A program made the position numbers and the translations under genes. From Wocania arenilitoris (GTDB lineage Bacteria; Bacteroidota; Bacteroidia; Flavobacteriales; Flavobacteriaceae): 64,000 nt of DNA. Shown here in pieces: positions 3,766-64,000 of the stretch (within the stretch, counting starts at the first letter, position 1; each line of letters opens with the position of its first letter). Under the pieces are notes generated by a model. It worked only from the letters and a program-made list of their open reading frames with translations, searched no databases and was not told the DNA's origin. The stretch is taken from positions 62,001 through 126,000 of the forward strand of contig NZ_JAKKDU010000008.1 in NCBI RefSeq assembly GCF_021728535.1, written 5' to 3'.

Positions 3766-4242
3766 CTAATTCACTTTAATAATTATAGGTAATTCAAAAG
3801 CTGTTTTAACTTGTTGTCCGCGCTTTATAGCTGGAAAAATTTTGGGTATAGAATCTAAGCTTTCATATAGCAAACTTTCAATATTCGGGATTTCTTCTTT
3901 TGTTAAAGCGTTTATTTTAGCATCTATTAATTTTAACTGCCCTGTTTCAGATACTTGAAAATTTAAAACTAATGTATCGCTAATATCTTTAGTAACTACA
4001 ATGATTTCATTTTGTAAAAACCCAGAAATATGTGTGGTTAATACCTGTTGAAAACACACTTTTTTGTCTGCTTTAACAGTTAACGAATCGCATTCTGAAA
4101 AACTAGGGTACTCATCAACATCGTTCCAATTAAAAGTTTGTAGTTCTTCTTTTAAAATGGCTTCGGGCGATGTTTTTTTTATGTTAAAATACTCGCAAGA
4201 CGTAAGCACTATAAATAATAATAAAACGCAAGTTTGCCTCAT
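3766..4242 (-). CDS. Lipoprotein with a degenerate TonB-C-like domain
   Basis: 158 residues with a lipoprotein signal (lipobox LTSC, Cys16). The mature part has the layout of the TonB C-terminal-like module found elsewhere in this window: YPSFSECDS, then DKKVC, a strand NFQVSETGQLKLIDA, a helix ending SIPKIFPA and a last strand FELPIIIKVN. Sequence identity to the other copies is low, so the domain call rests on pattern and on the matching pair of cysteines. It is the last gene of a minus-strand group, 41 bases after the TPR gene and downstream of the BlaI/M56 pair. It would be anchored in the envelope; its function is unknown. Confidence 0.6.
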   Translation of the reverse strand: MRQTCVLLLFIVLTSCEYFNIKKTSPEAILKEELQTFNWNDVDEYPSFSECDSLTVKADKKVCFQQVLTTHISGFLQNEIIVVTKDISDTLVLNFQVSETGQLKLIDAKINALTKEEIPNIESLLYESLDSIPKIFPAIKRGQQVKTAFELPIIIKVN

Positions 4243-4283
4243 GGATTAAAACTGAAACCGAAAAGTACAATTTTTTTTAGATT

Positions 4284-5426
4284 TTAATCTTCTTTCTTCT
4301 CTTCATTAAGAAACTTTTCTTCTTTAAGTATTGATATTTGATTATTAACAAAAGATATTAACTTGCTTTTTGGGAATTTTTTCTTAAAATCTTCAAAAGC
4401 TTTAATTTTAGCATCATAATCAGCATAATAAGCCTCAAGTGTTATTGCTAACTGCAAACTTGCAAACTCATTGCTGGGGTTTTCTTGTATGGCTTTTTTT
4501 AAAGCCTCAATACTCTTTTTATATTTTTTTTGTCGGTTTAAAACCGTAGCTAACCTAATATATTCAGCATCTAGTGGTTTATCTAATAACGCTAAAGCTT
4601 TCCATATATATTCTTCAGCTTTTTTAAAATCACCTAGCTCCTCATAATACGTTCCAATAACATAAATAGAGGTTGCATCCAATGGATTAAATTTTAATGC
4701 CAACTTTCGTTGTTCAATAGCTTTTTCATATTCATATAATTGTGTATAACATAGGCTTAATTTTTCATGAATAAAAGCTGATGATTCGCCCAATTCTAAA
4801 AGCTTTTCAAACCAAACTATAGCTTTTTCGTACTGCTGCCTTACATAGTAATTTTGCGCTTTTAAACTTATTAATTCTTTATTGTTTTTATAAGTTGACA
4901 AACCAATATCGATATATTTGTCTACTAATGTATTATGTCCTTTTTTAAGATGATGTTTTGCTATTCTATAAATGGCTTTTTGGTGCGTACTATCTAACTG
5001 AAACGCGCTATGAAACCTATTTTGCGCCGTAGAATCCTGTAACTGTTCTAAAACCAAACCCAACTCATAATGAAAGTTAGGGTTTTTATAATCTTTATAG
5101 ACCAATTGATTAAATATTTCTGATGCCTTTTTAAATTTTTTTGTTCGGTATAAAAATTTTCCAAAATCGTATTTTAACAGGATATTTTCGGGGTTGGTTT
5201 CTACTGCTTTTTGATAGTTTATAAAGCCCTCTTCGTAATTACCAATTGCAATATATGCCTTTGCTATTTTTTGATACACTTCTGGCGGATTATTGTATGC
5301 CTTATACTGTACAATAGCTTTACTGTAATTGCCATGAGCAAACAAACTGTCTGCAACATTTAAAACCGAAGTTTGAGCTTCGGTTTTAAAAATTATTAAT
5401 AAAAATAAAAATGTGAATCTTATCAT
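4284..5426 (-). CDS. Secreted tetratricopeptide-repeat protein
   Basis: 380 residues: a signal peptide (MIRFTFLFLLIIFKTEAQ) followed by about nine TPR units recognisable by recurring A/G-x-Y/F and P positions (YSKAIVQYKAYNNP, YEEGFINYQKAVETNP, YEKAIEQRKLALKFNP, YKKSIEALKKAIQENP). It ends in a lysine/glutamate-rich tail. TPR arrays bind peptides or partner proteins, and this one should do so in the periplasm. It starts 2 bases after the M56 peptidase gene ends, so it is almost certainly in the same operon and a candidate partner of that peptidase's periplasmic domains. Confidence 0.85.
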   Translation of the reverse strand: MIRFTFLFLLIIFKTEAQTSVLNVADSLFAHGNYSKAIVQYKAYNNPPEVYQKIAKAYIAIGNYEEGFINYQKAVETNPENILLKYDFGKFLYRTKKFKKASEIFNQLVYKDYKNPNFHYELGLVLEQLQDSTAQNRFHSAFQLDSTHQKAIYRIAKHHLKKGHNTLVDKYIDIGLSTYKNNKELISLKAQNYYVRQQYEKAIVWFEKLLELGESSAFIHEKLSLCYTQLYEYEKAIEQRKLALKFNPLDATSIYVIGTYYEELGDFKKAEEYIWKALALLDKPLDAEYIRLATVLNRQKKYKKSIEALKKAIQENPSNEFASLQLAITLEAYYADYDAKIKAFEDFKKKFPKSKLISFVNNQISILKEEKFLNEEKKED

Positions 5427-5428
5427 AT

Positions 5429-8053
5429 TTATTTATGAACTTGAAATACAATAGGTATTGAATAGGTTACATCAACTTTTTTACCGTTATGCTTACCTGG
5501 AATCAACTTTGGAATCGATTTTATAACACGCATAGCTTCGGCTCCTAAATCGGGGTGTGGTGCTCTAGATTTTTCTATTTCTATTTTTCCTTTTTTAGTG
5601 ATTTTGAAAACAACATTGATGAGTTGTCTACCTTTTAATCCTAAGCTTTCAGCTAAATCTGTGTTAAAGTTTCTATTTATGAACTTTTGAATACCAGTTG
5701 AAGTACATTCTCTTTTTTCTTTTTCGGTGGCTAAAGATTTGCATTCTGGTAATATGGGAGCTTTATCAACAATTGCAAAAGGTAATGTGCTACCTCCTAA
5801 AGTATCATCGGCATACCCAACCACAGCTACTTCATCTAGCAATTGCGTGTCTTCGACCTCAAAAACTATTGGTAGCGAATAAGGTACAGTAACTGCTTTC
5901 CCTTTTTGCATACCCGGTTTTATTTTAGGCAAAGACGAAATAACACGGATAGCTTCTGCTTCTAGAGCTGGGTGCGGACCTCTGGAACGTACACCAATAA
6001 TATTTCCTTTTTTGTCTATCTTAAAAATCACATTAATGCGCTGTCTGCCTTGTAACCCATATTCGCTTGCTTTTTTGGTATTAAAATTTTCAATTACAAA
6101 TTTGCTAAGCTTTTCGCTCATACATGATTTCTTTTCAGCATTAGTAACTAAGTCTTCACAACCAGGATAAACAGGTACATTTTCAATAACAGCAAAAGGG
6201 ACTTCTACATCTTCAATTATACTGATATTTTCACCCTTATTTACTCCCTTATTTACGCCATAGCCAACAACAACTGTTTCTTCTAGCGCCGATTTATCTT
6301 GTAGTTGAAAAATAATTGGTAACGAATAAGGCACTATTACATGTTTACCGTTATGCTTCCCTGGAGTCATTTTTGGCAACGTTTTAATAACTCTAATAGC
6401 TTCTGCCTCTAAATCGGGGTGTGGGGCTCTTGAACGAATACCTGTAACATTTCCTTCCTTGTCAATTTTAAAAATTACATTGATACGCTGTCTGCCAACC
6501 AAACCTAATTGAGTTGCTAAATCTGTGTTAAATTTTCTAGCTACAAACTTTGATATTTTATCTGATATACATTTTTTTTGTTCGTTTTGCGGTAAACCTT
6601 CACATCCTGGAAATACGGGTACTTGTTCTATAACTGCAAATGGGACTTCAACATGCTCTTTAGGCTTATGATTACTAAGACTAACACTTGGTTTAATAAT
6701 TACTTTATAATCTTTACCATCAGTCACAACAAACTCTTTATAGTGTTTATCGTTAAAAAATAATTCTTCTTTCTTTATATATTTTTCATTTTCTTCAACA
6801 GTAATATTGTCTAAATCTTTTACAACCAATCTCATAACGTCCATTTTTTTATTCTCCCAATCATATTTAGCCTCATCACTCTTTTTCCATTCAAGATATT
6901 CGTCATAAGTCATTTTTATCAAACCTTTAGATATCTTCTCCTCTGGAATATTGTTTTTGTAAGTAAAGATAAACTTGTAATACATTTGATTCTTATAATA
7001 TTCTTCTTTTGAAATTATATACTTATCACTATGAGACATATATTTTGTAATAATTTCTGATTCGGAATCATCCATTTTATCCATTTCTAAAATTTCTTTA
7101 TAAAATTTTTCCTTTAGTTGTTTATCCGTCAAGTCTTGTGTAGATACTTGTTCTTGATTCCTCTCATTTTTAATTATTTCTTGAGCTTCAGCAGAAGTAT
7201 AAACCAACATCCCAAAAACCAAAGGTATTAGTAATGCATACTTAATTAAATGAATTTGTTTTGACTTTGCTTTTGATAACATAACGATTCGTTTTTTGAT
7301 TAATGATTGTTTAAAAAATGTATTGATGAATGATATATTTCTTGTTTCGAAAACTTGAGATAATAGGTTTTGGTAATATTCGTTTTTATCTTGATGCTTT
7401 ACGGCATTAGCATCTGCAATAAACTCATGAAGCGTACGTATTCTATTTTGATACATATATACTAGCGGGTTAAACCAAAATAGTATTCGTAGCACCTCAA
7501 AAAACAATAAATCTAGTGTGTGCTTTTGTTTGGTATGAATAAGCTCATGTTTTAAAATGGCTTCTTTTTCTTCGGCTTTTATTTTTTCACCTAAAAATAT
7601 ATAATGGAAAAATGAGAATGCTGCGTTACTATTTACAAGCTCTACTAATACAATATCTCCAATAGATTGCTTTGGATTTTTTATTACTAAAACAACAATT
7701 TTAAATAACTTAAACAGAAATAAACCACAAGCAATAAAAAGCCCTATGTAAAAGACAAGCTCCCAAATAGGCATAGAATTTTGCTCTAAAGTCACCGCAT
7801 CTAAAGCAATAGTATTATTAGGATTCATACTAGATTGCCCCAAAACAACCTCGGGCAACGAAATAATGTAATTTTGAGGAACAACAGTTTTAAAACTACT
7901 TACTTTTATAAATGGCAATATTAAAGACAGAATAGCGGTTGCTAAAAGATACATTCTGTTCCAATTAAAAAAAGTTTCCCTTTTTAAAAACACATCGTAA
8001 ACAATTAAAAAGAATAATTGAAATGCAATGGTTTGTATTATATAATAAAGCAT
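5429..8053 (-). CDS. BlaR1-type M56 membrane metallopeptidase with three TonB-C-like modules
   Basis: 874 residues. N-terminal membrane domain with about five helices and the zinc-protease motif HELIH (His169, Glu170, His173), followed by LHEFIADANAV, where Glu210 is a plausible third zinc ligand. This is the M56/BlaR1 layout. After the last helix (about 270-290) comes a polar region, then three homologous TonB-C-like modules at about 471-586, 618-735 and 757-873. Each has P-x-x-P-x-C-E/K, a K/R-x-C, GRQ-IN-V-FKI and APHP-L or GPHP-L. Linkers between them carry ETVVVGYG and DEVAVVGYA, similar to the segment at the TonB box of SusC-type transporters. BlaR1 relatives sense an external signal and cleave their repressor; the signal here is unknown. 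It lies 2 bases after blaI and 2 bases before the TPR gene. Confidence 0.85.
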   Translation of the reverse strand: MLYYIIQTIAFQLFFLIVYDVFLKRETFFNWNRMYLLATAILSLILPFIKVSSFKTVVPQNYIISLPEVVLGQSSMNPNNTIALDAVTLEQNSMPIWELVFYIGLFIACGLFLFKLFKIVVLVIKNPKQSIGDIVLVELVNSNAAFSFFHYIFLGEKIKAEEKEAILKHELIHTKQKHTLDLLFFEVLRILFWFNPLVYMYQNRIRTLHEFIADANAVKHQDKNEYYQNLLSQVFETRNISFINTFFKQSLIKKRIVMLSKAKSKQIHLIKYALLIPLVFGMLVYTSAEAQEIIKNERNQEQVSTQDLTDKQLKEKFYKEILEMDKMDDSESEIITKYMSHSDKYIISKEEYYKNQMYYKFIFTYKNNIPEEKISKGLIKMTYDEYLEWKKSDEAKYDWENKKMDVMRLVVKDLDNITVEENEKYIKKEELFFNDKHYKEFVVTDGKDYKVIIKPSVSLSNHKPKEHVEVPFAVIEQVPVFPGCEGLPQNEQKKCISDKISKFVARKFNTDLATQLGLVGRQRINVIFKIDKEGNVTGIRSRAPHPDLEAEAIRVIKTLPKMTPGKHNGKHVIVPYSLPIIFQLQDKSALEETVVVGYGVNKGVNKGENISIIEDVEVPFAVIENVPVYPGCEDLVTNAEKKSCMSEKLSKFVIENFNTKKASEYGLQGRQRINVIFKIDKKGNIIGVRSRGPHPALEAEAIRVISSLPKIKPGMQKGKAVTVPYSLPIVFEVEDTQLLDEVAVVGYADDTLGGSTLPFAIVDKAPILPECKSLATEKEKRECTSTGIQKFINRNFNTDLAESLGLKGRQLINVVFKITKKGKIEIEKSRAPHPDLGAEAMRVIKSIPKLIPGKHNGKKVDVTYSIPIVFQVHK

Positions 8054-8055
8054 AC

Positions 8056-8415
8056 TTATTTCTTTTTATTAATTTCTTTTAAAACCGATTCTAGTTCGTT
8101 TAAACTAATATCATTTTTCTTAACAAAGAAAGACACCATACTTTTAAACGACCCTTGAAAATAATTATCTACTAACTTATTTATAGACTGGTTACTATAT
8201 TCTTGTTGCTGTACTAACGGAAAATATAAATGCCCTTTACCTTGCTTTTCGTAATCAACAAAACCTTTGCTTTCTAAAATCCTTACAATGGTAGATACCG
8301 TGTTGTAAGCCGGTTTTGGCTCAGGAAATTCTTCTATTATAGCTTTTACATTGGCTTTTTTAAGTTGCCAAAGTATTTGCATTATCTCCTCTTCGGCTTT
8401 GGTAAGTTGTTTCAT
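8056..8415 (-). CDS. BlaI/MecI/CopY-family transcriptional repressor
   Basis: 119 residues, typical of the family. The N-terminal winged helix begins KQLTKAEEEIMQILWQLKKA, continues through KPAYNTVSTIVRILESKGFVDYEKQGKGHLYFPLV (recognition helix and wing), and the C-terminal helices that dimerise follow. Family members repress their own operon and are inactivated by proteolysis through the partner M56 peptidase, which is encoded next. The upstream region (8416-8612) is full of perfect palindromes, including two sites matching the ACTA-N6-TAGT layout of mec/bla operators, so autoregulation is likely. Nothing here implies beta-lactam resistance: in Bacteroidota such pairs are common and mostly of unknown trigger. 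Confidence 0.9.
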   Translation of the reverse strand: MKQLTKAEEEIMQILWQLKKANVKAIIEEFPEPKPAYNTVSTIVRILESKGFVDYEKQGKGHLYFPLVQQQEYSNQSINKLVDNYFQGSFKSMVSFFVKKNDISLNELESVLKEINKKK

Positions 8416-8488
8416 TTTATACTCGATTTATTTTAGTATCTTTTAATACTATTTCTATTTTTTTTGAGATACTGAAACAAGTTCAGCA

Positions 8489-8516
8489 TAGCAAAGTGAA
8501 ATATTTCACTTTGCTA
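8489..8516. promoter_or_regulatory. Perfect 28-bp palindrome upstream of blaI
   Basis: The 14-base arm TAGCAAAGTGAAAT is followed directly by its exact reverse complement. It sits 74 bases upstream of blaI and 97 bases upstream of the divergent DUF456 gene, beside the double ACTA-N6-TAGT palindrome. Either a binding site for a dimeric regulator or a hairpin in the blaI leader; no T-run follows that would make it a terminator. A further smaller dyad, TAGTAT-N6-ATACTA, lies at 8434-8451. Confidence 0.5.
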
Positions 8517-8520
8517 ATAT

Positions 8521-8554
8521 AACTAAAAAATTAGTTTAAACTAATTTTTTAGTT
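8521..8554. promoter_or_regulatory. Two tandem BlaI/MecI-like operators forming one 34-bp perfect palindrome
   Basis: AACTA-N6-TAGTT occurs at 8521-8536 and again at 8539-8554; their centres are 18 bases apart and the pair together is a perfect 34-bp palindrome. The Staphylococcus mec operator has the same layout (TACTA-N6-TAGTA, from memory). The position in the intergenic region between blaI and the divergent DUF456 gene is right for an autorepression site. Binding is inferred, not shown. Confidence 0.6.
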
Positions 8555-8612
8555 AAAAATGTAACATTTGGCATAGTTTTTAGTCTAATTAATTGAATAA
8601 TTAAACTCTTTT

Positions 8613-54324: not shown

Positions 54325-56433
54325 CTAATTATCAAAATACCAATTAAACAAATCGGTTCTTAATCCAAAATTAAACCAAACCGTATTGTTTTTAAATGTT
54401 GTTGCAGTAATAGCATCTGGATTAAAATTTCTTATACTAATATCAGTAAACAGCTTTAAATTTGATGCAGGATTAATTATATAACCTGCTTGCAGATTGC
54501 CATTAAAGGTTTTTGTTTTTATCCCTTGACCTACTTCAACACCATTATCAAAAGGTCTGTCGTCATAATCACGATAAACATCTCCTCCGTAGCTAAAGTT
54601 ATCTGTACCATCATTAAAATCTAATCCTCTAACACCAAAAATAAGCTTAGCATCGGCAAACCAACGTTTGTAATTGTAGCGCCCAATTAAAATAGCTTCA
54701 CTAAAATTTGCACCCCACAAATGCGCCATAGATTGATTATTATGTCCATAATTTGTAGCAATAGTATTGTGCGAATAGGTATAAGGCCTAACTCTATTGT
54801 ATTCAAACTGAAGCATTAAATTATTAACTTTAAAGGCATTAAAATATTTAACCCCAATTTGATAACCGTACTTATTTTTCCAACTTCTTTCACCCGCTTT
54901 TACATCACTTAGTGAAAATTCATCTAAAATAAATTGACTATAAATATTTACATTATCATTCCATTTATATTTTGCCGATGCCCCAAGAATGGCATTTCCA
55001 GCATCTTGACCTGTTTCAAACTCAATGGCTCTGTAAAATATTATTGGGTTTAAATAATTTACATCAAAACCTCTATCGTTTGCATTAGTCCAAATAACAG
55101 ATTCAAATAGACCTAAATTAAATCGTTTAGACACATTCCAACTTAAATAATGGTTTGCTATATATTTGGTTAAAAAGGCTCCATCTTCTGTAACTTCTGG
55201 TCTTACATCCCTTAGCCACATCCAAGTATTTGTGTATTTAATTTTCCAAAACTTAGTGTTCAACTTTAAAAATGGATGCGGACTCGCCACATCGCTTATC
55301 AACAATGAGCGGTAGCCATCGCCTATAAAATTTTTACCATGCCCAAACTGCACATTTATAAACTTAGCAGGTGCATACGATAAATAAGCTTCGGCTACCG
55401 GATAATCGTAAGAATCTGTTTTAAATCGTTTTGCAATACCACGACCAGGAATTATGGCTGGATCTGGTCCAAAAGCTTTCAAACTTTCGGCATATTGATT
55501 AACGTATTGCGCAAATCTACCTTGACTCTCAAAAACTGAAGCATAAAAATTTAATTTTTTTCCTAAACCACCTCGTACTAAAAAACCTCGCGTATTGTTA
55601 TATGTAGAACTAAATTCGGCATCGGTATCTTTTCCAACTTGTAAATCTAAAATAGGATCTAGAGTGAACCAATAATCTTTTCCTTGTAACTCAACTAAAT
55701 GTTCGTTCCAAAGTTTTCGTCCTGCCCAAGTACTTGCTTCTTTTAGCAACTTATCTTTTTCAGCTTTAAAATCGTAATATTTTGAAACTTCATCGTAGAC
55801 AAAAGGTTTTGAAGCGGTATGGCTATTAGTACCAATCAAATTCATTTGTCTATCAAATCTAGAATAATCGCTATGCGTAAAAGGAATGTTTAACTGACTA
55901 GTATACCCCTTACTTTCAAAAGCTGATAAACTTTCGTTTACTTTATCAAACTCTGATTTGGCAGCAGCTTCTAGTTTAGAAATTTCATTAATCTTTTTAG
56001 CTTCTTCTTCAGTTTGTATAGCTTCTGATTGATTTACCAATGGTATTTTTATAGCAACGGAATACTGTTTATACGTTTTTCTGCCATTATAAGTTGCCTG
56101 TTTTACCTTGGGCAAAAGGGAAAATACCCGTTTAGCTTCCTCTTTTAGTTCATTGTAAATGGCATCAACATAAACCACCTTAAATTGCCCAAGGGTATCA
56201 ACCTCAAAAAGTAGAGCAACATCGCCTTTATAATTTTCATCTAAAGCTTTTTGCGGCACTTTAAAGTTGTTGTAAATATGAGTGAATACTTTGTTGTTAA
56301 AACACTGTTGCAAAACGTCAATTTCTACACTTTCGCAATCTGGAAAAACTGGCGGTTTTTCGTATTGAAAAGCACCTTGAGAGAAGATATTATTTTGAAT
56401 TAAAAGTAGAAATAGGACAACGAATCGCTTCAT
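54325..56433 (-). CDS. remB: RemB-like gliding motility outer-membrane protein
   Basis: 702 residues. Signal peptide (FLLLIQNNIFSQ). Residues about 25-135 form a TonB-C-like module (PPVFPDCESVEIDVLQQCF, VALLFEVDTLGQFKVVYVDA, VFSLLPKVKQ, YSVAIKIPL). After a charged linker comes a large beta-barrel with Wzi-like aromatic strands (DYWFTLDPILDLQVGKD, FINVQFGHGKNFIGDGYRSL, FLKLNTKFWKIKYTNTWMW, YLNPIIFYRAIEFETGQDAGN). I recall this layout for RemB of Flavobacterium johnsoniae, which affects gliding; the assignment rests on memory of that family. It is convergent with the disrupted MBL gene, 2 bases apart. Confidence 0.65.
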   Translation of the reverse strand: MKRFVVLFLLLIQNNIFSQGAFQYEKPPVFPDCESVEIDVLQQCFNNKVFTHIYNNFKVPQKALDENYKGDVALLFEVDTLGQFKVVYVDAIYNELKEEAKRVFSLLPKVKQATYNGRKTYKQYSVAIKIPLVNQSEAIQTEEEAKKINEISKLEAAAKSEFDKVNESLSAFESKGYTSQLNIPFTHSDYSRFDRQMNLIGTNSHTASKPFVYDEVSKYYDFKAEKDKLLKEASTWAGRKLWNEHLVELQGKDYWFTLDPILDLQVGKDTDAEFSSTYNNTRGFLVRGGLGKKLNFYASVFESQGRFAQYVNQYAESLKAFGPDPAIIPGRGIAKRFKTDSYDYPVAEAYLSYAPAKFINVQFGHGKNFIGDGYRSLLISDVASPHPFLKLNTKFWKIKYTNTWMWLRDVRPEVTEDGAFLTKYIANHYLSWNVSKRFNLGLFESVIWTNANDRGFDVNYLNPIIFYRAIEFETGQDAGNAILGASAKYKWNDNVNIYSQFILDEFSLSDVKAGERSWKNKYGYQIGVKYFNAFKVNNLMLQFEYNRVRPYTYSHNTIATNYGHNNQSMAHLWGANFSEAILIGRYNYKRWFADAKLIFGVRGLDFNDGTDNFSYGGDVYRDYDDRPFDNGVEVGQGIKTKTFNGNLQAGYIINPASNLKLFTDISIRNFNPDAITATTFKNNTVWFNFGLRTDLFNWYFDN

Positions 56434-56624: not shown

Positions 56625-57410
56625 TTATTGTACTTTAAATTTAATAGGTAATGTGTAAATAACATCTACATTTTTATCGTTTTGTTTCCCTGGTGTCATT
56701 TCTGGCATTAAATTAATAACTCGAATTACCTCACCTTCTAATTTTGGATGGGGTGCTCTAGTTTTAATATTATTAACTTTTCCTGTTTTATCAATAGTGA
56801 ATTGCACATCAATTTTCTGCACACCAGTTAAACCATACTCAGAAGCAATATCATCTCCCTGAAATTTTCGTTGAATAAGATTGGTTATTTTTTTAGACAT
56901 ACACCTTTTCCTTTCATCATTATTTTTTGCTTTTTCGCACCCTGGATAGATAGGTGCATTTTGTATAAAAGCAATAGGGACTGGAACATCTTCTGGCACA
57001 GGGGTTACTTCAATATCTCCCGGATCAATTGGCGGATTTACATCATCTGAAGGTTTTTCTGGTTCATTCTCAAATGGAAGATCTGGTGTATCATTTGGCA
57101 CTTCTTCAAACTTATTAGATTGTTCTTTTTGTTTTTGTTTTACAGGTTCATCAACAACAGGTTTTAATGTTATGATTATTGGCACATCAATATAAGTTGG
57201 AGGATCTACAGGAGGCAAATCTCCATAATCATGGATAGTTGTTTCAAACTTCATTTCAAACAATCCATAAGTGGTAAGCAAACACACTATTAACCCAATT
57301 TGAAAGTAAAGGGTTGAGTTTTTTTGTAAATTTGCATCATGTTTTTGTGGTTTTTTCACGATTTGCTCATTTTGCCGAATGAGTTCGTGAGTCTTCTTTG
57401 GAATTCTCAT
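56625..57410 (-). CDS. TonB-family energy transducer (first copy)
   Basis: 261 residues. A cytoplasmic start (KKTHELIRQNEQIVKKPQKH), one helix (LYFQIGLIVCLLTTYGLF), a proline/acid-rich periplasmic linker (about 75-145) and a C-terminal TonB module (about 147-260). The module has FIQNAPIYPGCEKA, RKRCMSKKI, YGLTGVQKIDVQFTIDKTG, RAPHPKLEGEVIR, MTPGKQNDK and YTLPIKFKVQ. TonB passes the proton motive force to outer-membrane transporters. The linker has acid/proline blocks rather than the usual Pro-Lys/Pro-Glu repeat. Downstream of the second copy on the same strand, but separated from it by a terminator. Confidence 0.9.
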   Translation of the reverse strand: MRIPKKTHELIRQNEQIVKKPQKHDANLQKNSTLYFQIGLIVCLLTTYGLFEMKFETTIHDYGDLPPVDPPTYIDVPIIITLKPVVDEPVKQKQKEQSNKFEEVPNDTPDLPFENEPEKPSDDVNPPIDPGDIEVTPVPEDVPVPIAFIQNAPIYPGCEKAKNNDERKRCMSKKITNLIQRKFQGDDIASEYGLTGVQKIDVQFTIDKTGKVNNIKTRAPHPKLEGEVIRVINLMPEMTPGKQNDKNVDVIYTLPIKFKVQ

Positions 57411-57470
57411 AATTATTATAGTTTATAATGTTAATATTATAATAAAATCACAATAAGCATACCAAAAAAG

Positions 57471-57500
57471 AAATCCCGTTACAAATTTGTAACGGGATTT
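57471..57500. terminator. Perfect palindromic terminator after the second tonB gene
   Basis: AAATCCCGTTACAAA is followed at once by its exact reverse complement; on the minus strand TCTTTTTT follows. It lies 84 bases after the stop of the upstream TonB gene. Confidence 0.85.
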
Positions 57501-57510
57501 TATTATTTAG

Positions 57511-57535
57511 ATTCCTGCCTTTGCAGTAATGATAA
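57511..57535 (+). repeat. ATTCCYGC-type hairpin repeat, copy 3
   Basis: ATTCCTGC-CTTT-GCAGTAAT plus GATAA; one mismatch in the stem. It sits between the terminator and the TonB stop, in the same orientation as the other copies. Confidence 0.7.
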
Positions 57536-57583
57536 TTTCAATAGATACATCGCTACAAAAGTACCGATGAAAGACTTTTCAAT

Positions 57584-58306
57584 TTAATCTTGTACTTGGA
57601 AAACTATTGGTAAAGAATATGGAACAGTTACAGCTTTTCCTCTTTGCTTTCCTGGTTTCATTTTAGGTAGCATACCAACAACACGTTTGGCTTCTTTCTC
57701 TAAACCTGGATGTGGTGCTCTTGCACGAATACCTACTACGCTACCTGTTTTATCAATTTTAAAAATCACGTTAATACGTTGTCTTCCTGACAAACCTAAA
57801 TCACCAGCTAAATCTGTATTAAACTTTCTAGTAACAAGCTTTTGAATCTTTTCAGACATACAAGCTTTCTTCTCATTATTAGTTCTCTTTTTTTCGCATC
57901 CTGGGAAAACAGGTACATTTTCAATTACTGCAAAAGGGACTTCTATATCTTCTTCTACTTCTTCTACTTCAACTTCTTCAACCTCAACAATTTCAGTTTC
58001 TTGATCAGATTCTGTAGATTCTATAACCGTTTCCTCAACCTCTTCTTCATCCTCAACAACCTCAATAACTTCAGGAGCTGCTGGTGGCGGTGGCGGTGGC
58101 GGTGGCGTTTTTATTTGTTCAATTAGTGGAATTTCTTCCTCATCTAAATCATCTAAATTTAACTGTCCTAAATCTAGATCAGATTTATCATATGTTTTGT
58201 AGTTAATGGCATAATTTGTTAAAAAAAGCATTAAACATAAGCCGATTGCGAAATACAGCGAACTGTTTCTACCTACATTTGCTTTAGGATTTTTTTTAGG
58301 TTCCAT
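57584..58306 (-). CDS. TonB-family energy transducer (second copy), acidic linker
   Basis: 240 residues. Short basic start, one helix (LYFAIGLCLMLFLTNYAI), a block of eight prolines (KTPPPPPPPPAAPE), then about 50 residues almost entirely Glu/Val/Asp/Thr (EVVEDEEEVEETV, EVEEVEVEEVEEDI), and the C-terminal TonB module (FAVIENVPVFPGCEKKRT, KKACMSEKI, LSGRQRINVIFKIDKTGS, RAPHPGLEKEAKR, KMKPGKQRGKAV, YSLPIVFQVQD). The module is closer in sequence to the second M56 module than to the other TonB. The linker should stay extended across the periplasm by charge repulsion. Confidence 0.93.
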   Translation of the reverse strand: MEPKKNPKANVGRNSSLYFAIGLCLMLFLTNYAINYKTYDKSDLDLGQLNLDDLDEEEIPLIEQIKTPPPPPPPPAAPEVIEVVEDEEEVEETVIESTESDQETEIVEVEEVEVEEVEEDIEVPFAVIENVPVFPGCEKKRTNNEKKACMSEKIQKLVTRKFNTDLAGDLGLSGRQRINVIFKIDKTGSVVGIRARAPHPGLEKEAKRVVGMLPKMKPGKQRGKAVTVPYSLPIVFQVQD

Positions 58307-59520: not shown

Positions 59521-62500
59521 TTAATTCCCAAAATTATATCGCAGTGTTAAACCTGATCGAATAGTTGTTTGAGGAAATGCTGTTGATATAGCATATTCTG
59601 AAAATGCATAATCAAAATAGAAAATCCCCGTTAAATTTTTACTAAAGGCATAATCGGCTGAGTATTTTAAACCCCAAATGGTTTGACCTGTTGTTACCTG
59701 GGTATTATCTAAATCTAAATAGCGTATAATGGTTTTGTTATCTCTAACAGATATATCGGCTTTCATATTTAAATCACTCACAATACGCTTTTTTGGTCCA
59801 GCAAGTTGCGAACGAATACGTACATCTTTTATTCTGTATCCTAATCCAATAACATACTCATTTCCTTGTATTTCGGTCAATAAATTATTATCGAAACTAA
59901 GTGATAACATCCTATCTTTTCTAACCTCGGCAAGTATTTTCATAGAATTTTTCATTTCGAAATCTATCCTTACCAATGGACTAAATTGTTCCATCAAATT
60001 TATATTGCTAAACAAGGTTTCATTTTTAAAATTGCCACCTTGATCTAGCTGATATGTACTTGGATTGTTAGGATCTGTTACAGCTTTAGTATCAAAATCT
60101 AAATTTGTACTAAACTGATTTATGGTGTAAGTTGAACGATAGCCATGTGTTATAGAAAAACGTTTAAAACGTTTTTTAAACCAATTAAACTTCATAAAGC
60201 CTGTGTACTTTAAATCCCAGTTAGGAATTGGTATATCTCTAAAAGCACTAGTTTTAACTTTACTTGCATCTTGCCCCGAGTAAGCTGCCAAAAATGCCGG
60301 CAATAAAACCGCTTGATTGTTTTTACCAAAACCTAACGGGTAGCCTTCTGCATCTCTCGCGTATGTTGTATTACCATAAAATTTTTCTGCAAGTCTTTCT
60401 GCAATTTTTAATCTATTAGACCTTAAATCGTTAAATGCTTCTGATATGTTTTCATCACTTTTACTAAATGCCGTTTTAATTAAAATGGTAGAAATATTAA
60501 AGTTCCCAAAGGCATTTGGTGTTAAAGAATTATAATCCAATATTCCATCTGGTAAAAATCCATCTGAAACTAAATTTCCATCTGCATCCTTATAATCTTC
60601 AACTCTAAAATTCTCATTATAATTTTCGTAATATGCTCTGTTACCAACTAAATCTATCTTTAAATCTCTTACTGGCTCTAAATTTGCCGAATAATCCAAC
60701 TGCTTTGTATGTGTTTCGGTATATTGTTGATTAAATTCTGGAAATACAGTTAACCAACCATTTCTAGCTGCTAGATCTCTTATATTACGCTGACTACCAA
60801 AAGTATAACCTAAGGTTGGTCTTAACGTACCAATAAACCCAGGTGTTTGAGTATATCCTGGTAAAAATGTACCGTTATTTTCAGAATAGTTAACCTGAAC
60901 TCTTTTAATGCTTGTTAAAATATCAACACCGACATTTAATAATTTTGTAACTGATTTATTTTTGCTCTTTGCAGGTTTTTTATTTTGATTTGCTGCTCCA
61001 GGGGGTCTGCCTTTTTGTGGTGTTCTTGACCTTACATTTCTTACTGGCTTTTTTACTAAACCAATATATTTATAGAGCTTTTTCATGTCTAAAGTTGTAT
61101 TTAGACTATGATTATTTGAGTTTTGAATACTATTAACTTCTCCACCTAAAACTTCACCAAATAAATCTGATCCTTTTTGCCACATAAAATCGCCATTGTA
61201 CCTGTAATCTGCTGACAAAAAGCTAAAGGTTGGTATTTTATCTATTGGCAATTTATAATTAAGACCCAAACTTTGTGTTTGCTTATTGGGGTCTCCAAAA
61301 TCTAGAAAGCCATCCCAAACATCTAAGGTTGGATCTTGTTCGCCATTTACAATATTATCTTTAAAATAATTACGTACAATGTTGTTGTTGGCTGCTGTAA
61401 AATTAAAATTTAGAGCCTTTGTTAAATTATAATTAATGGTGTATTGAAAATCGAACGTGTAATTTCTTCTAAATAATTCTTCAATACCAATGTTTCCAAC
61501 ACCTAAATCGATATCTCTAAATTTTTGTCTATTAAACTGCCTATTTATATCGGTATTAACCGTAAAACTTGTTGGCAATAAATTGAAGTTGAAATCTTTT
61601 AAAATTCTCCAATACTTGCCTTTAAATAATGAGTCGTTCTTTTTAAAAGGTTCAACTGTAATGGGGTTAAAATTGAATGCATAATTTGCACCAACTCGAA
61701 CGGTTTTATTGACTGAGTTTTCAATTTCAAAATCGCGGTGTTCAACTTTATTGTAAGAATAGTTGAGTGTTAAATTTTCAACATCGTAAAAACGCGGTTT
61801 AGCATCGCCTGTTCTTATTTTTCTAACACCAATAAAATTGATGCTTTGGCGTCTGGTATAATCTTCAGATTGTTCTTTTATTTTCTCCCGTTCAGCACTA
61901 TCATTTGCAGCATCTAATCTAGAATCTAAGGTTAAATCTTTATAAAACTGATCAAATTTTGGTGTTATTAATTCTTCACTTTGCGCATAATTAAATGGTA
62001 CTTGTATGCCCCATTTTTTTGGCAATAATTGCCCAATATTAACATTAGTTACCACGTCGTATTGTTTAACATCTTCTAATGCACGCTGACTTGGACCTTG
62101 CTCTATACCCCCGAAACCAGAAGTGCTCTGTCTTCCCGTTGCACTAATATTCGCAAAATCTGCAAAGTTTGTATCCATACTTACAACTGCAGCCCAACCA
62201 CCTTTGTTATCTAAATCGGATAAACGCAACTCGTTAAACCAAACTTCGGCGCAAATATCATCTCTATTTGTAGCATTTTTAACCCCAACCATTAATGTTC
62301 TTACATCTCCAAAATTAGGATTTCCTCTTATGGCTATTCTATGCTGACCCGCTATGTAATTTGAATATTGATCGCCAGTAACAGGTACAGCTTCGCCATT
62401 AATAACATCATAAAACGTGGGGCTTAAGTTGGTTAAAGTACCATCTGAAATTCCTATAGATTTAATTTGCCCTAAAACATCTATTGGTAAATTAATTTCG

Positions 62501-64000
62501 TTTTCTTCTGGCCAAAGCCCTTCTCTTGTAGCTGAAGTTGAAACTTGTAATGGGATTTCTATTTGATAAAAATTCTCATTTAAATCGTTACCTATTCTAA
62601 TAAATCCTACCAAATCATTATTATCCAATGGATTTCCAGAATCATCAGCTTCGGCATGCATAAACATTCTTATACGCTTATACTGACGCATATCTATACT
62701 TATGTTTTTAAATACTGCTTTTGAATCTTCTGATTCTAAATTACATACATTAACCACTAACGATTGTTCATTTTGTGGAACAACAGTGTTATTATTAAAG
62801 AGCTCTTCTGGTTCAATCCCTGGTGGTCTTGCGTAACTTCCTTCGTTTTCAAGCGTACCTATAACACCTACTGAGAAATCGGTTTGTGGGTCGTCTGGTG
62901 TTGCGTCATTTTCATCTAAAGCTTTTGTGTATCGTCTCCAATCACTACGTACTAAATCTAAAGTACCAAAACGAAATACGGTGTTCTCTTGAAATTCTTT
63001 TAGAAATACACGCGCAAATCTTATAGAACGTAAATCGCTAATCCCTCCAATTGAAGTGACGTGACTACCTTGTACTGGAATTCTGAATTGATACCAACGC
63101 ACATCTTTTGAATCTCCATTTGGCAAAGCCCTTGGTCTCACTTTTATATCTCTTAAAAAATCTTTTAAAGGATTACTGGTTGGTAAATTATCTAAATCTG
63201 CTTCAGATTCTGGTAAGTTTTGACGCGTAATATCTAACTCATATTCAAAATAACTATTAATCGTATTCATGGTGTTATCACGATTAATATCTTCTGCGTC
63301 TGGTTGTGTATTTGCAGCTCTTACAGTATCTGAAAAGGTATCTGGTGTATTACCCTCAACGCCGTTATACTTTTTGTAACGCTCAAAAATATTACCTTGT
63401 GTATCTAAAAAATAACTGTAATTATCATTTGCTGGATCTTCTAACCCTGCAAAATCTGGAAATTTAACACTTTCATCTGCATCACTTAAACCATCATAAC
63501 CAATATCTTGAAGCACTCTATCTTCTCCCGTTGAATCAAAGGCATAAATTAATGATTGATTTGATGGTGTTTTTCCCCAAGACGTTTCTGTTGTAAACGC
63601 ATTGTTCGATGAATCGGGTAATCCATTTTCGTATTGTTTTCTTCCATCTGATAGTACATCCTCAGAAATATTACCTAAGTTAAACACCAGTTTACCACCT
63701 GGGTTTGCTGGGTTTTCTTGAAATGGATCTTGCAACCAAAATTCAATATATTCTACATTAGCTTGTTCTAAATCTGTTGATGTTAATTGACGGGTAATTC
63801 CTGCCCAACTTTCTTGAGGATTTGGTAATGTGTTTCCGTTTGCTGCAGGATTAAAGTTGTATGGGCCTCTTTCTGATGGATAATATGCTAAATCTAAAGT
63901 GAAAAGCACCGAATTTTGACCTTGTACTAACTGTCTATCTGGAAACAGTTCGTTTATAAAAACACGACTTGTAAATAAATCTGATAAATCATCATCCGAA
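59521..64000 (-). CDS. sprA: SprA, type IX secretion translocon/gliding protein (C-terminal part)
   Basis: The frame runs off the window end, so about 1490 C-terminal residues of a protein of roughly 2400 are present; the GTG at 63909 is only internal. The recurring long-barrel features (LAYYPSERGPYNFNP, WYQFRIPVQGSHVTSIGGIS, GRQSTSGFGGIEQGPSQRAL, RQSINFIGVRKIRTGDAKPRFYDVENLTLNYSYN, FTLGYTFGSQRNIRDLAARNGWLT-like TLGYTFGSQRNIRD, LGYRIKDVRIRS, and the C-terminal SGLTLRYNFGN) are those of SprA/Sov, the 36-strand outer-membrane pore of type IX secretion. The order sprA-gcvH-vanZ-tonB is conserved in flavobacteria as I recall it. Confidence 0.93.
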   Translation of the reverse strand, partial: SDDDLSDLFTSRVFINELFPDRQLVQGQNSVLFTLDLAYYPSERGPYNFNPAANGNTLPNPQESWAGITRQLTSTDLEQANVEYIEFWLQDPFQENPANPGGKLVFNLGNISEDVLSDGRKQYENGLPDSSNNAFTTETSWGKTPSNQSLIYAFDSTGEDRVLQDIGYDGLSDADESVKFPDFAGLEDPANDNYSYFLDTQGNIFERYKKYNGVEGNTPDTFSDTVRAANTQPDAEDINRDNTMNTINSYFEYELDITRQNLPESEADLDNLPTSNPLKDFLRDIKVRPRALPNGDSKDVRWYQFRIPVQGSHVTSIGGISDLRSIRFARVFLKEFQENTVFRFGTLDLVRSDWRRYTKALDENDATPDDPQTDFSVGVIGTLENEGSYARPPGIEPEELFNNNTVVPQNEQSLVVNVCNLESEDSKAVFKNISIDMRQYKRIRMFMHAEADDSGNPLDNNDLVGFIRIGNDLNENFYQIEIPLQVSTSATREGLWPEENEINLPIDVLGQIKSIGISDGTLTNLSPTFYDVINGEAVPVTGDQYSNYIAGQHRIAIRGNPNFGDVRTLMVGVKNATNRDDICAEVWFNELRLSDLDNKGGWAAVVSMDTNFADFANISATGRQSTSGFGGIEQGPSQRALEDVKQYDVVTNVNIGQLLPKKWGIQVPFNYAQSEELITPKFDQFYKDLTLDSRLDAANDSAEREKIKEQSEDYTRRQSINFIGVRKIRTGDAKPRFYDVENLTLNYSYNKVEHRDFEIENSVNKTVRVGANYAFNFNPITVEPFKKNDSLFKGKYWRILKDFNFNLLPTSFTVNTDINRQFNRQKFRDIDLGVGNIGIEELFRRNYTFDFQYTINYNLTKALNFNFTAANNNIVRNYFKDNIVNGEQDPTLDVWDGFLDFGDPNKQTQSLGLNYKLPIDKIPTFSFLSADYRYNGDFMWQKGSDLFGEVLGGEVNSIQNSNNHSLNTTLDMKKLYKYIGLVKKPVRNVRSRTPQKGRPPGAANQNKKPAKSKNKSVTKLLNVGVDILTSIKRVQVNYSENNGTFLPGYTQTPGFIGTLRPTLGYTFGSQRNIRDLAARNGWLTVFPEFNQQYTETHTKQLDYSANLEPVRDLKIDLVGNRAYYENYNENFRVEDYKDADGNLVSDGFLPDGILDYNSLTPNAFGNFNISTILIKTAFSKSDENISEAFNDLRSNRLKIAERLAEKFYGNTTYARDAEGYPLGFGKNNQAVLLPAFLAAYSGQDASKVKTSAFRDIPIPNWDLKYTGFMKFNWFKKRFKRFSITHGYRSTYTINQFSTNLDFDTKAVTDPNNPSTYQLDQGGNFKNETLFSNINLMEQFSPLVRIDFEMKNSMKILAEVRKDRMLSLSFDNNLLTEIQGNEYVIGLGYRIKDVRIRSQLAGPKKRIVSDLNMKADISVRDNKTIIRYLDLDNTQVTTGQTIWGLKYSADYAFSKNLTGIFYFDYAFSEYAISTAFPQTTIRSGLTLRYNFGN

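Follow-up and report, generated by a model that had tools for sequence, protein, structure and literature searches.

The closest described relatives of the locus reported here are the staphylococcal BlaR1/BlaI and MecR1/MecI systems, whose classical operator sites have a TACA/TGTA core and in which the scissile pair of MecI is Asn-Phe. Stress sensing through lipoproteins is known from RcsF-IgaA and NlpE-CpxA, where signalling proceeds by phosphorelay. Flavobacteriaceae depend on type IX secretion and on import driven by TonB, the protein that powers uptake across the outer membrane; how these marine bacteria perceive the condition of that membrane is, to our knowledge, poorly known. In BlaR1, a change in the sensor is followed by activation of the protease and degradation of the repressor (PMC7593790).

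We analysed a stretch of 64,000 nucleotides, called the window below, from the 3.49 Mb genome of Wocania arenilitoris. It probably encodes a BlaR1/BlaI-type circuit that is self-contained and signals by proteolysis, with TonB-type C-terminal sensor domains and with induction mainly of its own operon. No study of M56-TonB_C systems was found in the literature searched, an apparent match (PMC12578637) concerning other proteins, and we regard the circuit as a new variant of the BlaR1/BlaI kind, without earlier description in that literature. The features of the locus are the following.

3766..4242, minus strand: lipoprotein of 158 aa with a degenerate TonB_C-like domain (lipobox, hhalign, AF2, fold)
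4260..4270, minus strand: TTGTACTTTTC, putative lipoprotein-gene promoter (conserved upstream element)
4284..5426, minus strand: secreted TPR protein of 380 aa, optional (Pfam TPR, 8e-23)
5429..8053, minus strand: M56 BlaR1-type membrane zinc protease of 874 aa (Pfam M56 and TonB_C, HELIH, BlaR1 fold)
5432..5782, minus strand: TonB_C module 3, M56 residues 758-874, 54% identity to the sprA-linked TonB of the same genome
5840..6199, minus strand: TonB_C module 2, M56 residues 619-738, 69% identity to the same TonB
6287..6643, minus strand: TonB_C module 1, M56 residues 471-589, 72% identity to the same TonB
8056..8415, minus strand: blaI, Penicillinase_R repressor of 119 aa (Pfam 6e-33; end-to-end MecI alignment, 3e-16)
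8514..8521, minus strand: TATATTAG, immediately following the operator, a candidate -7 box (most relatives have TATATTTG)
8522..8553, minus strand: predicted twin BlaI operator, two ACTAAN4TTAGT dyads that jointly form a perfect palindrome (conserved upstream of blaI across the family)

The blaI, M56, TPR and lipoprotein genes all lie on the minus strand with intergenic gaps of 2, 2 and 41 bases, and the ORF coordinates bear out the layout given in an earlier, sequence-only reading of this DNA. The span of 3766-8612 proposed there for the operon has to be shortened, as 8612 directly adjoins the divergent DUF456 gene; the operon itself reaches only to 8415, and its operator to 8553.

The M56 protein matched Peptidase_M56 (Pfam, 2e-15) and, in three stretches, TonB_C (9e-29). 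Its HELIH motif is at residue 169, and H169, E170, H173 and E210 are invariant in 44 rows of relatives. In the AF2 model (mean pLDDT 79 over 874 aa), residues 1-237 found as top structure matches the BlaR1 cryo-EM entries 8exs, 8ext, 8exq, 8exr and 8exp, with Z of 14.2-16.4, and after the BlaR1 entries came TonB-CTD structures matching the modules, with a best Z of 8.6 for the TonB-CTD bound to FoxA. The enzyme had been called an intramembrane-type peptidase; intramembrane proteases are of the M50 type, whereas this one belongs with BlaR1 among the membrane-embedded peptidases. The proposal that TonB_C modules take the place of the BlaR1 sensor agrees with the Pfam domains and with the succession of a BlaR1 fold and a TonB-CTD fold in the model.

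The repressor, whose closest named relative is from an uncultured Flaviramulus (97%), aligns with MecI through the cleavage region. At the position of the scissile pair it has Phe-Phe, with Phe presumably standing for Asn at P1, and the P1' Phe is invariant in the aligned rows. Like the staphylococcal systems, the locus combines the BlaR1 fold of M56 (Z 16.4) with an adjacent BlaI-family repressor and paired dyads over the promoter; unlike them, it has TonB_C instead of a penicillin-binding sensor and no beta-lactamase, and its predicted target is its own operon. A classical BlaR1-like sensor of beta-lactam or cell-wall damage, which the presence of BlaI and of an M56 with the BlaR1 fold could suggest, is very improbable: Pfam found TonB_C alone in the C-terminus of M56 and no penicillin-binding (class D-like) sensor domain, the protein scored 37 bits with the BlaR1 equivalog model, far below the cut-off of 400, and the operon holds no beta-lactamase or PBP2a gene, its other members being the TPR protein and the TonB_C-like lipoprotein. 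A BlaR1/BlaI-type circuit in which TonB-type domains replace the beta-lactam sensor is supported by both sequence and model.

Two further blaI-M56 pairs are present in the same genome, one (L002, C37:37709) with receptor Plug domains and the other (L003, C36:45027) with a Pro/Glu-rich tail. The first resembles the window locus in that its periplasmic domains, too, come from the TonB system, and differs in carrying Plug in place of TonB_C. The candidate dyads upstream of the two paralogous blaI genes, TAACTA/TAGTTA for the Plug-bearing pair and TCTACA/TGTAGA, differ from ACTAAN4TTAGT. Sensors of this class seem to be built out of parts of the TonB system.

Three TonB_C modules, as read earlier, are indeed found in this M56 by Pfam and in the model, but the number is lineage-specific and not a general feature: among 76 complete close loci, M56 has one module in 41, two in 26, three in 7 and four in 2. 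At least one module is present in nearly all M56 members examined, and the modules are the conserved periplasmic part of the protein. This conservation speaks against an arrangement in which the modules would only anchor the protein to peptidoglycan or the outer membrane, sensing being left to residues 310-460 or to the membrane part; the stretch 310-460, which links the final membrane helix to the modules, is predicted to be well folded (pLDDT ~90) and the module count ranges from 1 to 4, which would suit a tether, an explanation that we nevertheless find improbable.

The C-terminal domain of TonB (PF03544), especially that of the sprA-linked TonB of Flavobacteriaceae, is 50-82% identical to the modules and has the same paired cysteines. 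Unlike in TonB proteins, the modules here hang on a BlaR1-type protease, whose N-terminus is of the BlaR1 type and shows no single N-terminal anchor or Pro-rich spacer such as those of the TonB at 57584-58306. Compared with the 240-aa TonB that is encoded close to sprA in their own genome, the M56 modules mostly show 50-73% identity. In a tree of module and TonB domains that is weakly resolved, the Confluentibacter module, 82% identical to the TonB of its genus, is sister to it (90/96), and the modules of the Maribacter and Arenibacter group join a different TonB type. From this tree and the identities, functional TonB proteins appear to have supplied the M56 sensors or to have stayed alike with them; the module sequence tracks the TonB proteins of the family, with what looks like one recent domain swap.

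Such a close resemblance to real TonB proteins favours a binding partner shared with them. The modules might compete with cellular TonB for the TonB boxes of receptors or for other partners and so report the engagement of outer-membrane transporters or of secretion parts, an explanation that we hold tentatively, as well short of an even chance. It would account for identities mostly of 54-73% to the sprA-linked TonB, reaching 82% in one genus, with apparent domain exchange, and for the receptor Plug domains of the paralogous M56 of the same genome. TonB-box-like VVGYG linkers, which separate the modules in the window M56, also point this way; they are rare, however, being confined to a few species including Wocania arenilitoris (the window and a handful of relatives), so that we rejected them as a general ligand and do not count them as a defining part. 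The receptors of this genome, moreover, lack the operator.

The operator bears on the other half of the preferred reading, namely a BlaR1/BlaI-type circuit that would mainly induce its own operon. The two dyads, of 14 bp each, are spaced 18 bp apart, and their half-site, ACTAA, is unlike the classical BlaI/MecI sites. Exact dyads were found upstream of blaI in 51 of 58 family loci, nearly every one from a different genus, and among close relatives 68 of 73 loci carry the twin operator ahead of blaI-M56, with a third dyad downstream in 47. Directly after the twin operator stands TAnnTTTG in 52 of the 68 loci and TAnnTTAG in 13, and TAnnTTTG is the -7 consensus of flavobacterial sigma-A (PMC9723704). 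BlaI is predicted to have dyad operators at its own promoter, conserved across genera.

Across the family, the twin operator occurs in 66 of 120 genomes, in one copy each except for two genomes with two, the reversed-pattern control being mostly zero in family genomes. Of the sites listed, nearly all lie beside blaI-M56, and a few with two mismatches resemble chance. The genome of Wocania arenilitoris itself has a single full twin match, all other sites having at least three mismatches; a wider regulon built on its 14 other single dyads was rejected, as almost all of them are intragenic. Outside the family (~145 genomes), the twin operator was found at chance level only. A site that, where present, nearly always stands once per genome, beside blaI-M56, suggests that the circuit chiefly controls itself and has few targets elsewhere or none. 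Weaker ones may exist at a distance, as two genomes have a second twin before unrelated genes. One of these second twins (L320:3261-3292) is upstream of a gene for a secreted 626-aa protein containing HEGRHSID, the other (L321:3480-3511) between a membrane protein gene and a trp operon.

At the other end of the operon, the lipoprotein has the lipobox LTSC, with a Cys at residue 16 that is invariant in 53 rows. It gave no Pfam match, falling below the cut-off of TonB_C (PF03544). Profile-profile comparison with the M56 modules (hhalign) gave a probability of 97.6 and an E of 3e-12, and in the AF2 model (pLDDT ~95 over residues 40-158) TonB-CTD and TolA-III structures fill nearly all leading places, with a best Z of 6.7. 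The degenerate TonB-C-like module attributed to this lipoprotein is thus confirmed by profile and by fold.

The lipoprotein is a core gene of the family, present in 115 of 120 genomes, and outside the family (~145 genomes) a search gave nothing beyond chance or TonB-type matches. In 80 genera chosen by the lipoprotein, blaI adjoins it in 57 and not in 23; at least 3 of these 23 have blaI-M56 at another place in their genome. Without blaI-M56 beside it, the lipoprotein gene still keeps its slot in about 20 genera, with DUF456 on one side and the usual downstream genes on the other, which suggests that blaI-M56-TPR was gained or lost as a block around a core lipoprotein and that the lipoprotein, standing alone there, must have another job. 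Starting from the 80 most BlaI-similar loci, 76 of which are complete, we found the lipoprotein gene downstream of M56 in 76/76 and the TPR gene in 48/76, figures that hold for close relatives; in some divergent genera blaI-M56 has neither as a neighbour. Of the four-gene unit proposed earlier, then, the linkage of M56 to the lipoprotein stands in the complete close loci, while the TPR gene is optional and the lipoprotein is not a part dedicated to the system. A few operons have other secreted proteins inserted between the M56 and lipoprotein genes.

The shared transcription that had been supposed for the four genes is also qualified. The motif T[CT]GTA[ACT]TTT was found upstream of the lipoprotein gene in 42 of 57 loci with blaI and 14 of 23 without, against 0/40 for TPR, 0/53 for M56, 0/57 for blaI and 10/609 for other genes. 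As the lipoprotein gene has this conserved element of its own, co-transcription by read-through is possible but gives an incomplete account, which limits the four-gene unit. A wider form, AAAAAAT[TC]GTA[AC]TTTTC, stands before the gene in the window (4260-4270) and in relatives, and its TCGTA variant is reminiscent of the CGT box in ECF promoters of flavobacteria (SM6, PMC9723704).

The constant linkage raises another explanation, in which an outer-membrane lipoprotein would be the ligand of the M56 modules, and its mislocalisation or lost contact would lead to BlaI cleavage in the style of RcsF-IgaA or NlpE-CpxA. The likeness to these systems lies in the pairing of a lipoprotein of the outer-membrane type with a signalling protein of the inner membrane (here by gene linkage), and the difference in proteolytic de-repression, as proposed here, instead of a phosphorelay. 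In the complete close loci no other gene accompanies M56 as faithfully as that of the lipoprotein, the lipoprotein has the TonB_C fold in common with the M56 modules, TonB/TolA domains can self-associate, and in one genome (G089, locus L326) three TonB_C-like lipoproteins follow M56. Set against this, the lipoprotein is core even where M56 is missing, and some M56 loci have no lipoprotein nearby; we judge this explanation rather unlikely.

For the preferred BlaR1/BlaI-type circuit, sequence or model gives the domains, the folds, the operator and its promoter overlap, the near-single target and the linkage, and we infer the protease activity, the cleavage of BlaI, the signal and the roles of the TPR protein and the lipoprotein, as well as every dynamic step. 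BlaI would occupy the two neighbouring dyads, which overlap the -7 region of the blaI promoter, and so keep blaI-M56(-TPR) low, with read-through from there into the lipoprotein gene. M56 would span the inner membrane, with the zinc protease facing the cytoplasm and the TonB_C modules in the periplasm. On binding or release of a partner by the modules, the protease would be set free, BlaI cleaved and the operon induced. The likeliest partner would bind TonB-type domains, and might be a client of TonB in the outer membrane, a TonB itself or the TonB_C-like lipoprotein; that the circuit senses TonB-partner engagement or the lipoprotein is plausible. With an output consisting mainly of the operon's own products, it would serve local homeostasis of an envelope component and not global regulation. 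In a more elaborate form, which we offer as a speculation with odds clearly against it, M56 would be a TonB-mimicking BlaR1-type receptor that samples the partners of TonB, swaps domains with TonBs and reports the coupling of inner and outer membrane by repressor proteolysis, the lipoprotein acting as competitor or feedback ligand.

A BlaR1-type protease, TonB domains, a precise predicted operator and a near-single target make a compact system whose signal should be findable by genetics. If the proposed circuit is true, the BlaR1 chassis would be a general platform for envelope sensing, beyond antibiotic resistance.

The window also contains SprA (59521-63909), the translocon of the type IX secretion system (NCBIfam TIGR04189), with two TonB-family genes (56625-58306) close downstream. 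The 240-aa and 261-aa TonB types co-occur in nearly all of 17 genera sampled, and most M56 modules have their nearest relative in the C-terminal domain of the 240-aa type. At 54325-56433, a secreted barrel-like protein of 702 aa has an N-terminal degenerate TonB_C-like domain, a weak match (Pfam 0.007, HMM 58 bits). In the M56 proteins of five loci (L238, L271, L144, L151 and L149), carboxypeptidase-regulatory-like or Plug-like segments, recognised by eye, follow the TonB_C module.
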